Below, one piece after another: positions 27,941-31,315 of a stretch of 45,309 bases of DNA. The stretch covers positions 1 through 45,309 of the IMG/VR virus record IMGVR_UViG_3300043313_000945, one strand, 5' to 3'. A program made the position numbers and the translations under genes. The stretch is from a virus. How positions within the stretch are numbered: the stretch's first letter is position 1; each line of letters opens with the position of its first letter. The notes below the pieces were generated by a model. It saw only the letters and a list, made by a program, of their open reading frames with translations. It made no database searches and had not been told where the DNA came from.

Positions 27941-28536
27941 CAGCCGGCCCGGCGGCGCTCGGCGCGGATGAGGCGCTGGATCATCTGCATGCGGCGCTCC
28001 TTGTCGTGCTCGCGTTCGGCGAGGACCGCCTCGATCAGCTCCTGCTTGATGCGCTGCGGGAGGTCCGCGACGAGGATCTCCTCCAGTTCCTCGTCGCGCT
28101 CGCGGGTCGGCTCGGTCGGCGCCGCAACGCCCGGGCGCAGTCCGGCTGCCGCGAGCGCCTCCTCCTCGTCCAGACACAGGATGGCGGCGAAGCGGGCCAC
28201 GACGCCGGCGTCCTCGGGCCGCTGCTGGCCGTTTTCCCAGCGCCAGACAGTGACCCTGTCGACCTTGAGTTGGCGCGCGAGCTCGGACTGGGACATGCCG
28301 CGACCTTCTTGCGCGGTCTCCCGCGCAGCCTTGGCGAACGTTGCCCAGGCGACACGATCTGCGGGCGGGTTGTTGCGCACACGCAAAGGATAGGTGCTCG
28401 GTCGCGGCCTCCGTTCCGGTCGGCCTGGTTGTGGGCTGGCCCTGTTGCGCTCACGACGCAGGGCGGCGCGCTGGCGTTGGTCGCGCAGCTTTTCGCGGCT
28501 GATATGGCTACTGGCAGTGGTCTGGGCCCGTTGCAT
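27940..28536 (-). CDS. XRE-family phage repressor
   Basis: A helix-turn-helix is clear at MSQSELARQLKVDRVTVWRWENGQQRPE, followed by a charged helical C-terminus (RDEELEEILVADLPQRIKQELIE) without a peptidase domain. The start is uncertain. ATG 28536 is seven bases after a -10-like TAGCGT and would be leaderless (198 aa). GTG 28380 is six bases after TATCCT and would also be leaderless (147 aa). Matching inverted repeats lie at both starts. The protein is the natural immunity repressor, transcribed together with int and divergent from the early genes. Confidence 0.78.
   Translation of the reverse strand: MQRAQTTASSHISREKLRDQRQRAALRRERNRASPQPGRPERRPRPSTYPLRVRNNPPADRVAWATFAKAARETAQEGRGMSQSELARQLKVDRVTVWRWENGQQRPEDAGVVARFAAILCLDEEEALAAAGLRPGVAAPTEPTRERDEELEEILVADLPQRIKQELIEAVLAEREHDKERRMQMIQRLIRAERRRAG
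28373..28386. promoter_or_regulatory. repressor operator-like site 1
   Basis: TTGCG-CACA-CGCAA is a perfect inverted repeat. It overlaps the alternative GTG start of the repressor and lies directly beside a -10-like TATCCT on the minus strand. It matches site 2 at 12 of 14 positions. Confidence 0.5.
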
Positions 28537-28546
28537 ACACGCAACG
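28529..28546. promoter_or_regulatory. repressor operator-like site 2
   Basis: CGTTGC-ATACAC-GCAACG is an 18-bp inverted repeat between the divergent repressor and Cro-like genes. Its centre is the same as site 1 apart from two bases. Half-sites GCAAC recur at about 28602, 28640 and 28669 in the start of the Cro-like gene. Confidence 0.55.
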
Positions 28547-28591
28547 CTAGGCCACCGGGACGCTACAGAAATCAACCGAAAGGATGACCCT

Positions 28592-28894
28592 GTGTCGCTA
28601 GCGCAACAGGTCAACTGCGCCTACGGTTATGTCGTGTCCGCAACAGATCAGCAAGCCCCGAGCGCCACAGGCGCAACACCCCGACTCGACGGGTCCGTAT
28701 TCGACGAGCGCTGTCGGCGGATCCTCGGGGACGGGGCCACCGAGCAGGCGAAAGCCGATCTCGTCGGTATCGACAGGGTCAGCCTGCACCGCTACCGCAA
28801 GGGCGAGCTCAACCCCCGACTGGAGGTCGCGCGCCGTTTCGCGACCCGCCTCGACGTCGAGATCGACGTGCTCTGGCCGGACGCCGCCTCATGA
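28592..28894 (+). CDS. Cro-like HTH regulator
   Basis: The 100-aa protein begins VSLAQQVNCAYG and carries a compact HTH (ATEQAKADLVGIDRVSLHRY and KGELNPRLEVARRFATRLD). GTG 28592 follows GAAAGGA by seven bases. It is the first gene of the rightward early operon, divergent from the repressor, which is the position of Cro. It overlaps the next gene at ATGA. Confidence 0.68.
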   Translation: MSLAQQVNCAYGYVVSATDQQAPSATGATPRLDGSVFDERCRRILGDGATEQAKADLVGIDRVSLHRYRKGELNPRLEVARRFATRLDVEIDVLWPDAAS

Positions 28895-29154
28895 CCACCA
28901 ACCTGCTATCCGTTAAGGCCGCCGCGCTGCGCCTGGACGCGTCGCCGATGACTGTGTATCGGCTGCTCTATGCCGGCCTGCTGACGCCTCACCACATCGG
29001 GCTGGGCAAGAGCCGACCGCGCATTCGCATCGCCGAGCCCGACCTCGATGCCTACATCGACTCGACGTACGCCGGCAAGCCGCCCGCCGGTCCCGGCACG
29101 CCGCCCCCGCCTCCCGGCCCGAAGCCTGCCACTCCGAGGAGGGCCGCGTCATGA
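28891..29154 (+). CDS. excisionase-like MerR-type HTH protein
   Basis: The 87-aa protein has an HTH_17/Xis-like domain: LLSVKAAALRLDASPMTVYRLLYAGLL, GKSRPRIRIAEPDLDAYIDS. A Pro/Gly-rich tail follows. Such proteins act as recombination directionality factors or regulators. Its place next to the immunity region makes excisionase likely. It overlaps both neighbours at ATGA. Confidence 0.65.
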   Translation: MTTNLLSVKAAALRLDASPMTVYRLLYAGLLTPHHIGLGKSRPRIRIAEPDLDAYIDSTYAGKPPAGPGTPPPPPGPKPATPRRAAS

Positions 29155-29681
29155 CCGTCGCGACCCGCGACTTCGCCGCCGACATGACCAGCGTCATCAC
29201 GGCCGAGATCGGCGACGGACCGTACGTCTCCGCCGTCATCGCGCTGCACATCGTGGAGAAGCTGCGCGCCACCGACCCCGAACTCCTCGCCGGCTGGCTC
29301 GACCTGCAAGCGGTCGGGATCCTGCGCGATGCGATCAGCACCCGATCGCGGTCGGAGAAGGCGTCGGCCCGTGCGACCCGGGGCCGTTCGGTCTTCGGTG
29401 ACGCTGCCCGCGAGCACGACGATGGGGACTCCACCGCGCTGACCAGCTTCCTCGACGTCCGCTACGTCGTCGACGAGGAGCACACCCGTACCCGGCTCGC
29501 CGAGATGCGTAAGCCCGAACTGCTGTTCGCAGCCGACGACTACCGCCGGCAGGCCAACGAGAACCTGCTCGAAGAGGCGTTCCTCCGCGCGCTGGCCAAG
29601 AAGGTTGGCGCCCGGCAGGTAGCGGATGTCTTCGACGACGACAAGCTCGCCGCGATGTGGCACTCCATCAGCGGCGGCTGA
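29151..29681 (+). CDS. early protein, unknown
   Basis: The 176-aa helical protein has an N-terminal helix-rich region (ALHIVEKLRATDPELLAGWLD), a basic linker and a charged C-terminal region (RKPELLFAADDYRRQANENLLEE). No family is recognised. It immediately precedes the C-rich tract and is part of the early operon. Confidence 0.6.
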   Translation: MTVATRDFAADMTSVITAEIGDGPYVSAVIALHIVEKLRATDPELLAGWLDLQAVGILRDAISTRSRSEKASARATRGRSVFGDAAREHDDGDSTALTSFLDVRYVVDEEHTRTRLAEMRKPELLFAADDYRRQANENLLEEAFLRALAKKVGARQVADVFDDDKLAAMWHSISGG

Positions 29682-29684
29682 CCG

Positions 29685-30218
29685 ATGACCACCCGCCCCG
29701 CTCCAGCCCCTGCCCTCCCAACCCGGCCCCGCGCCTGCCCCCCCGTCCCGACTCCGACTGCCCCATCCTTGCCCGTCCATCCCGTCCCTTTTCGACTGCC
29801 CATGCCACCCCAGACCTGCCCCCGTCAGCCCTCGCCTGTCCCGACTTCCCCCCCCCGCCCCCACCCAGCGCCTCCCGACCCGTCCCACCCGACTACCCAC
29901 CCCAGCCCCGGCCTTGCCACCCCGTCCCACCCGACACCCCGTCCCGACTATCCAGATCCGCCCACTCCGGCCCGCTTCCGACGTCCCGTACCTACCCAGC
30001 TCACGCCTTCCCATGTCTTCCCGACTGCCCGTGCCTACCCCTCCCTGCTCGTCCCAGCCCGACATGCCTTGCCTGCCCCCCACCGTCCTCGCCATCCCGC
30101 CCCAGTACGACAAGTCACCCCGAGCCCGCCCCTCTCGCGCCCTCCCCGACGACCCCAGCCGCCCCCTGCCACGGCCTTCCGGCCCCGCCCGCCCCGACTA
30201 CCCAGGAGTCATAGATGA
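29685..30218 (+). other. C-rich, G-poor 0.5-kb tract, possibly a proline-rich ORF
   Basis: By hand count, 29701-30180 is about 57% C and 16% G on the plus strand, while neighbouring genes have nearly equal C and G. All three forward frames are open for most of its length. One frame starts at ATG 29685, three bases after the previous stop, and ends at 30218 in an ATGA overlap with the next gene, giving a 177-aa protein about one-third proline with no domain. G is scarce at every codon position, which points to selection on the RNA or DNA itself. Degenerate units like CCCGTCCC and CCCGACT recur. Confidence 0.55.
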
Positions 30219-30880
30219 GCGTGTTTGAGAAATACCGCGACGAGATGTTTCCGTACCGGTTCACCGGCCAACTCCACGTCGGCGTCATCGCTGGCGGTAC
30301 CCCGACTGACCCGAAGGTCGCCGAGGGCTGGCTGAAGACGAAGCTCGGACTGGACAAGGACGACCTGATCCGGGAGAAGGTCGCCGAGGTCATGGTGGAA
30401 CGCGGCCTGACCGCCGACGAGGCCACCGCCGCCGTCAACGAATCCAAGCACCTCAACGGATTCAAGCGCGACGAGAACGGCCTCTACATCGAGGGCCGGC
30501 AGTTGAAGGCCGCGCTGAAGGAAGCGGCCAGCATCGCCGTCGCGGCCGGCAAGCTCACCTCGCGCGGGTGGGGCAAGACCAACAAGGGTTTGCTCTCATA
30601 CCTCGCCGAGCATGTCTTCGTCGTCGAGGACCGGCTGTACCTCGGGGTCGCCGAGGCGTCCGGAATCGCGCAGCGGTTTGTGCACACCTTCCGTGGTACC
30701 GGGATCCAGTACGAGGAGTACGTCGAGGACGCGAAGGTCGACTTCACTGTCATCGCCGATCACGACTTCGCCGCGAAGGAATGGGCCGCGATCTGGACGT
30801 GCGGGGAGCAGAACGGGATCGGCGCCTCGCGCTCGCAGGGTTTCGGCCGCTACGAGGTCACCCGGTGGGACAAGTCATGA
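30215..30880 (+). CDS. RAMP-like (Cas7/Csm3-type fold) phage protein
   Basis: The 221-aa protein has two RAMP-type hallmarks. YIEGRQLKAALKEAA (91-105) corresponds to the IPGSSLKGALR-type motif of Cas7/Csm3/Cmr proteins. GIGASRSQGFGRY (201-213) is a glycine-rich loop GxGxxRSxGFG at the C-terminus. Between them are GWGKTNKGLL and FRGTGIQYEEYVEDAKVDFTV, a strand expected before the final helix of the fold. AGGAG before ATG 30215 supports the start. No cas gene or CRISPR array occurs in the window. The assignment rests on motif recognition only, but I believe related proteins occur in other phages. Confidence 0.55.
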   Translation: MSVFEKYRDEMFPYRFTGQLHVGVIAGGTPTDPKVAEGWLKTKLGLDKDDLIREKVAEVMVERGLTADEATAAVNESKHLNGFKRDENGLYIEGRQLKAALKEAASIAVAAGKLTSRGWGKTNKGLLSYLAEHVFVVEDRLYLGVAEASGIAQRFVHTFRGTGIQYEEYVEDAKVDFTVIADHDFAAKEWAAIWTCGEQNGIGASRSQGFGRYEVTRWDKS

Positions 30881-31101
30881 CCCAGCCCACCGCCGCGACG
30901 ATCCCCGCGCCCCTGAACCCGCCGCCCCCACCGCCGCCGGCCCCGCGCCCGCCCGTACCCGGCAAGGTCGGCCACGCCACCACGCTGACGTTCGCGCAGC
31001 GCCGCGCCAACTACCAGCGACAGAACGGCAGCCGTCTGCTGACGGCCCGGCAGGATCGGCGGCTGTGGCAGAAGAGCCGCCGGTTCGAGGGTGCGTCATG
31101 A
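30877..31101 (+). CDS. basic proline-rich small protein
   Basis: The 74-aa protein has a Pro run in residues 10-28 (NPPPPPPPAPRPPVPG), then a basic helical end (FAQRRANYQRQNGSRLLTAR). It overlaps the RAMP-like gene and the next gene at ATGA. Basic and Pro-rich character would suit nucleic-acid binding, but no family is recognised. Confidence 0.55.
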   Translation: MTQPTAATIPAPLNPPPPPPPAPRPPVPGKVGHATTLTFAQRRANYQRQNGSRLLTARQDRRLWQKSRRFEGAS

Positions 31102-31190
31102 GCCCGACCCCGCCGCTGAGCCGCGCCTACGTGGCCTTCGTGCTGATCCTGCTCGCCGCCGCGTTCGTGATCGCCGTCTTCACCACCTGA
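31098..31190 (+). CDS. 30-aa membrane peptide
   Basis: MSPTPPLSRAYVAF is followed by one hydrophobic segment (VLILLAAAFVIAVF) and two threonines. It begins in an ATGA overlap and is followed by a long hairpin, so it is the last gene of this early segment. Confidence 0.5.
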   Translation: MSPTPPLSRAYVAFVLILLAAAFVIAVFTT

Positions 31191-31194
31191 GCCC

Positions 31195-31278
31195 CGGGTC
31201 GGGCGGCGAGCTTCCCCAGATCGCCGCCGCCCGACCCGGCCGAACGAAAGGGCCCCAACCGTCCGAGCGGCGGGGCCC
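31195..31278. terminator. two hairpins in the early operon
   Basis: The first hairpin (31195-31209 with 31221-31238) has a 15-bp stem interrupted by a 3-base bulge. The second (GGGCCCC 31250-31256 with GGGGCCC 31272-31278) has seven pairs. Neither has a T-tract. They may partly terminate or process the early transcript between the RAMP-like segment and the replication genes. Confidence 0.55.
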
Positions 31279-31315
31279 CCAGACCAGATCCATCAACGAG
31301 AAGGGATCAAGCCCG

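Follow-up and report, generated by a model that had tools for sequence, protein, structure and literature searches.

The C-rich tract between two early genes of this virus is, with a probability of roughly 0.55, a repeat-less guide-like RNA array belonging to a three-part cassette, together with a small helical protein (P176) and a protein of Cas7/Csm3 fold. The window, that is, the whole stretch of 45,309 nucleotides analysed, carries the tract in a rightward early operon, with the integrase and the repressor on the minus strand. The genes follow one another rightward as an HTH_17/excisionase-like gene (28891-29151), P176 (29151-29681), the tract, and the RAMP-like gene (30215). The tract starts directly after the P176 stop (29681) and ends at the RAMP-like ATG at 30215, which confirms what an earlier note on this DNA had claimed of its end. 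The features are listed below.

29151..29681, + strand: P176, all-helical in its AF2 model, 176 aa, neighbour of the RAMP-like gene in most loci
29685..30205, + strand: candidate guide-like array of about 11 units in a 5-nt register (NNYYC) with (C/T/A)CGAC boundaries, from pentad layout, phase statistics and composition
29685 (ATGAC), 29748/29754, 29792, 29841, 29889, 29944, 29978, 30021, 30059, 30107 and 30146, + strand: starts of the array units, with the last boundary at 30194
29792..29840, + strand: shared unit, common to L024 and L031 (the same contigs as L003 and L010), scores 27.4 and 25.2, with 18 reached in 0/5 shuffles
30059..30106, + strand: shared unit, common to contig L026 (31 nt, ATGCC TTGCC TGCCC ...), in-phase score 18.4
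30215..30880, + strand: RAMP-like gene, 221 aa, predicted Cas7/Csm3 fold from the structure model, Foldseek, VIA and weak profile matches

The core feature of the array is its pentad register, not its C-richness. When the window array was anchored on CGAC, the fifth pentad position was C in 49/51 cases, compared with 20/58 (0.34), 15/58 (0.26), 32/58 (0.55), and 48/57 (0.84) at the other four phases. None of 2000 random-phase controls reached the observed value. The autocorrelation of C, averaged over 14 loci, was +0.21 at lag 5, +0.16 at lag 10, and +0.10 at lag 15, and it was -0.02 at lag 6. Unit lengths also step by five, with clusters at 33/34, 38/39, 43/44, 48/49, and 53/54, and 176 of 255 lengths equalled 3 or 4 modulo 5. 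Across these 255 units of 30-57 nt, which were drawn from 290 distinct units at 48 loci and selected by their first nine positions and composition only, positions 10, 15 ... 45 were C in 86-95%. Units outside the stated length ranges were excluded from the composition counts. CRISPR-type direct repeats were not found; the only repeats were one of 42 nt (71-80% identity) and one of 33 nt, each in two copies, and the sole element recurring between units was the 4-10-nt CGAC motif. No further array cluster was found in the stretches of the window that were scanned.

The RAMP-like protein was modelled with AF2 at middling confidence (pLDDT 75.7). A Foldseek search with this model gave a best E of 5e-5, and all 50 of the 50 matches listed were CRISPR effector chains of Cas7 type or complexes containing them. 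VIA-align placed the model on a type VII chain with Z 10.2 (rmsd 3.5 A, 135 residues) and on several type III-A chains with Z 9.0-9.7. Sequence profiles gave only weak Cas6/Csm4/Csm3 matches below the cut-off, the protein fell in no Pfam or PHROG family, and an hmmsearch of a RAMP profile against PDB sequences returned no credible match. By its modelled fold, therefore, the RAMP-like protein resembles the Cas7 family, whose members coat RNA as the backbone of CRISPR complexes, and sequence profiles place it in no Cas family above the cut-off.

P176 was modelled as a helical protein with a pLDDT of 93.8. Its fold had no Foldseek match in the PDB below E 3.7, and VIA gave a Z of at most 4.6. An IMG/VR search with the window P176 sequence found no relatives, and the homologues were identified only by their position beside the RAMP-like gene, where they occur at 59/76 loci, duplicates included. 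In PADLOC and PHROGs the only match was to phrog_4604 (function unknown), with 15/50 members. A Cas11-like role for P176 would be a guess.

Most units were private to one phage, and a few recurred in other phages at different positions. Among 1474 units, 20 unit pairs across contigs scored at least 18 in phase, and five pentad shuffles gave 0, 0, 0, 0, and 0 such pairs. Two pairs of closely related contigs account for six of the 20. The remaining 14 had 3/101, 5/97, 15/93, 9/87, and 3/87 mismatches at pentad positions 1 to 5, respectively. Counted per unit family, 5/121 columns were variable at positions 1-2 versus 16/109 at positions 3-4 (Fisher p 0.006; nine families, a small sample). The pair finder pre-filters on shared 6- to 7-letter seeds, mostly at positions 1-3 but in some cases at 2-4 or 1-4, and this could bias the pairs towards conservation at 1-3; position 3 was still the most mismatched. 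Positions 1-2 were thus most variable between units and least variable between copies of one unit. This is expected of a message, not of filler. The flanks of L097 and L100 are ~88% identical, and their arrays, of ~0.4 and ~0.8 kb, share some units and hold many private ones. Several L097/L100 units were found at other positions in L101 and L102, two contigs that share ~52% RAMP protein identity with L097.

We searched for targets of the units under assumed pairing rules, and none was found in their own DNA, in 0.73 Mb of related phage DNA, in IMG/VR, in sampled actinobacterial genomes, or in rRNA. Spaced seeds matching 16 of 20 positions, with the fifth position skipped, gave 5 matches to related-phage DNA in a first set, compared with a mean of 1.9 in shuffles, and 3 of the 5 paired a unit with a copy of itself that had escaped masking. 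A larger set gave 2 own and 5 other matches versus 0.0 and 2.4 in shuffles; a single L074 unit, matching at two places, accounts for both own-DNA matches. With shorter seeds (12 of 15), own-DNA matches numbered 17, versus 9.2 +/- 2.9 in shuffles. The mean best match in own DNA, minus shuffles, was -0.0013 (se 0.0017) for positions 1-3 and +0.0032 (se 0.0013), a small value, for positions 1-4. In the low-GC own-DNA test, one strand of L102 scored 0.668 versus 0.638 +/- 0.011 (7 units), with nothing comparable in the other seven tests. No excess was seen in rRNA (E. coli rrnB, one Streptomycetaceae-family 16S locus, and one 23S locus). Three exact shared-unit patterns, searched in IMG/VR, returned two array contigs, two array contigs, and six stretches that all lay on cassette contigs. 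In Streptomycetaceae genomes, an exact pattern was found in 0/297, and with up to 2 mismatches in 4/121, three of which were the same sequence (control pattern 1). Three Streptomycetaceae-family genomes (L165-L167) have one 28-nt sequence in common, with two mismatches to a unit of L049, L051, and L079; it is probably one conserved gene that matches by chance.

These negative searches count towards the main rival reading, which we consider rather unlikely. Here the array would be a sequence-neutral RNA scaffold or decoy that only nucleates Cas7-like filaments, and the bases between the Cs would carry no information. Its purpose could be, for instance, titrating or mimicking host CRISPR subunits, or coating a messenger. 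A strong C register and low G would suit a protein-coated unstructured RNA, and PMC7937560 describes a type IV-B Csf2/Cas11 complex that assembles on heterogeneous RNA of regular length. However, a neutral scaffold does not fit with positions 1-2 that are near frozen in shared units though freest between units, nor with whole units that recur at new places in distant phages.

We also examined how the array is distributed. Taking an array as at least four unit starts within 3.5 kb of the RAMP-like gene, we found one in 66/75 contigs, 63 with a same-strand array and 3 with a reverse one only, compared with 3/375 first-order Markov-simulated stretches. For the association and neighbourhood counts, 11 duplicate loci of 86 were left out, leaving the 75 contigs. 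In six of the 9 without an array, the contig extends less than 325 nt upstream of the RAMP-like gene. The true exceptions without a scored array were L035, L036, and L048, and L048 has a short array by eye. No third recurring gene was found within 6 kb: barring antisense shadow ORFs, no other protein cluster occurred in more than 9 of the 75 contigs. In L097 and L100, the frame right after the array has the look of a putative PD-(D/E)XK-type exonuclease. The position of the array varies, and some lie downstream of the RAMP-like gene or are inverted. The cassette takes a divergent form in L058 and L064: arrays of opposite orientation lie on both sides, in a stretch that runs from ~900 nt ahead of the RAMP-like start to 1700 nt beyond it, and P176 has moved to the downstream side of the RAMP-like gene. 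In L060, L070, L091, L066, and L077, a single phage carries several separate arrays, distributed over different intergenic gaps; units therefore need not adjoin the cassette.

It is distinctly unlikely that the array is a DNA-level element, such as an origin of replication or a site for partition or packaging, whose iterons, as double- or single-stranded DNA, are recognised by P176 or the Cas7-like protein. The spacing is iteron-like, some contigs have several arrays, and a few have reverse-oriented ones. Nevertheless, the arrays are mostly co-oriented with the cassette genes, the sense strand is low in G with weak predicted structure, and both the Cas7 fold and the private contents of the units speak against such an element. 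Moreover, a step of 5 bp amounts to half a turn of DNA, which would be an odd register for a site in duplex DNA.

The cassette is rare in cultured material and is carried by dozens of uncultured phages. A scan of phage records found it in 1/50,697 (Mae-JY09, L094, PP395641.1), where both proteins are annotated as hypothetical and the array region has no annotated feature. Mae-JY09 is labelled a Microcystis phage, yet the stretch read is 72% GC, and the host label is perhaps doubtful. The cassette was found in 0/72,556 plasmids. The scan of genome contigs gave 1 locus, in Streptacidiphilus carbonis NBRC 100919 (L093), and the single positive among 148 genomes of its class was this same genome.

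The earlier note had described a C-rich, G-poor tract, and the counts bear this out. The tract at 29685-30214 contains 56.8% C, 17.0% G, 12.1% A, and 14.2% T, and C and G are 57.5% and 16.3% at 29701-30180. It had also suggested a sliding C-over-G skew check; in 500-nt windows over the 45,309-base record, the maximum starts at 29681 with (C-G)/(C+G) = 0.556, and the runners-up are its overlaps. As had been supposed for a single-stranded RNA, the sense strand is predicted to be unusually unstructured, with -0.139 kcal/mol/nt compared with -0.40 to -0.53 in ten nearby stretches. An Rfam scan of 29100-31000 gave no match, and scans of 28300-31300 for consensus promoters and terminators found none. 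After the RAMP-like gene, at 30877-31101 of the window, a short frame with a proline-rich stretch (APLNPPPPPPPAPRPPVPG) was observed, possibly a further C-rich oddity.

The C-richness is not kept in all relatives. In the low-GC relatives L053, L071, L097, and L100-L102, the register and the CGAC boundaries are kept with far fewer Cs in between, and even phages of 45% GC have arrays, though not C-rich ones. The C content of arrays rises with genome GC (r 0.69), and their G stays at 13-26%. In the lowest-GC set of 36 units, G is avoided at pentad position 4, C occupies position 5, and positions 1-3 are near free; because the register was one of the criteria by which they were picked, these units are no proof of it, and the evidence for it is the 255-unit set and the phase statistics of the window. 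A Fourier power search for periods in low-GC contigs was uninformative because the register resets at each unit boundary. The template-strand G-runs, pointed out earlier as able to form quadruplexes, do have that capacity, and they look like a by-product of composition: the motif was found in 51/80 arrays and in 0/10 arrays from contigs at or below 0.58 GC.

These results bear on whether the tract is a Rho-loading (rut) or antitermination site of the early operon, which we regard as very improbable. The sense strand is indeed C-rich, G-poor, and predicted to be unstructured, as a rut site requires. This accounts for the composition, but not for the partner protein or the units shared singly between phages, and Rho loading predicts neither a C at every fifth base nor lengths in strict steps of five. 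C-richness is lost in the low-GC relatives, and the array is downstream of the gene or inverted in some contigs. The earlier note had offered a long rut site or a binding platform; the platform fits best, with the adjacent RAMP-like gene as part of it, and the Rho part is not upheld.

The array is non-coding, and the open frames of the window follow from its composition. All forward frames had been said to be mostly open, and a 439-nt stretch of the array in fact lacks a stop in any of them. The pressure had been placed on the nucleic acid, not the protein, and we agree, given the 5-nt period, the lengths that are not multiples of three, and the sense-frame stops in all three frames of 39/80 arrays. 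A proline-rich protein from the open frame at 29685-30218 or 29657-30214, which the note had also raised, can be all but dismissed on the same evidence, since the period is 5 and not 3 nt, the unit lengths shift the frame, and those 39 arrays are stopped, even though the window frames are open.

Returning to the guide-like array, we propose the following mechanism. The array would be transcribed in the sense direction with the operon, since it is co-oriented with it. The Cas7-fold protein would polymerise on the unstructured transcript, each subunit covering 5 nt and recognising the C that is nearly invariant in every pentad, and CGAC would be the unit boundary, as suggested by the register, the quantised lengths, and the fold. 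Cutting or parsing at CGAC may divide the transcript into complexes that hold some 6 to 10 subunits each. Unit-specific information that recognises a partner nucleic acid would reside in the bases that separate the fixed Cs, mainly at positions 1-2 and to some extent at 3, because positions 1-2 are conserved in shared units. Speculatively, the complexes would most likely bind or silence transcripts or DNA, whether of the host or of a competitor; this seems likelier than cutting because no nuclease recurs beside the cassette. According to PMC7937560, known Cas7 filaments flip one base every six nucleotides, so a five-nt filament would have a different pitch. It is conceivable, at somewhat less than an even chance, that this is a repeat-less phage RNA-guided system with a Cas7-like filament of five-nt pitch, in which the fixed C is read, the other bases find the target, and guide units are gained, lost, and exchanged between phages like the spacers of CRISPR arrays.

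We compared the cassette with known systems. It shares with type IV-B, as outlined in PMC7937560, a backbone of Cas7 fold, a small gene for a helical partner, the lack of a nuclease, and carriage on mobile elements. Type IV-B includes csf1 and csf3, lacks an array of its own, and has a flipped base at every sixth nt, whereas the cassette has its own array and a 5-nt register, and the fold of P176 is unmatched to Cas11. The nearest folds to the RAMP-like protein were type III-A Csm3 and type VII Cas7 effectors; in contrast to those systems, the neighbourhood has no recurring Cas10, Csm4, Cas6, or other gene, and there are no direct repeats. With respect to Class 1 CRISPR-Cas in general, the Cas7 backbone was found by fold only, and a near-identical direct-repeat array was absent. 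Neither further subunits (Cas5, Cas6, Cas8/Cas10) nor Cas1-Cas2 were found among the protein clusters within 6 kb in the 75 contigs. The register, read from the sequence alone, has no six-nt step (lag 5 +0.21, lag 6 -0.02).

The cassette resembles TIGR-Tas in its phage-borne tandem guide-like units beside one or two small genes. As described in PMC12045711, TIGR-Tas combines a Nop-domain protein with two repeats of 8-12 nt that alternate, and its products are 36 nt long, whereas the cassette has a Cas7 fold, no repeats beyond CGAC, and units of 33-54 nt; neither a Nop-domain Tas protein nor two alternating repeats with 9-nt spacers were found. Viral mini-arrays and Racr single repeats are viral CRISPR-like RNAs that occur without a full system and copy host CRISPR repeats, according to PMC11656645. 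The cassette is likewise viral and CRISPR-like, but it seems to have no such repeat and has a phage-encoded protein. A literature search, mostly without subscription papers and preprints, found no description of such a system among the entries listed. Type IV-B, the type III and VII Cas7 systems, TIGR-Tas, and Racr each appear to fail at least one of the defining features considered; the array would be a type of its own, and the protein is a distant fold relative of a known one.

If this reading is true, the array would be a type of guide array defined by periodic protein contacts and not by direct repeats, with a five- and not a six-nt Cas7 step, and CRISPR finders based on direct repeats would not be expected to detect it. 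The evolution of Cas7 filaments and the use of nuclease-free guide systems to phages would then become testable. Even the modest reading, a conserved array with a Cas7-fold protein in dozens of uncultured phages, still points to an undescribed phage RNP. On these results, the array may be a relative of CRISPR without repeats that has so far gone unrecognised, and through which phages would carry guide-like RNAs.
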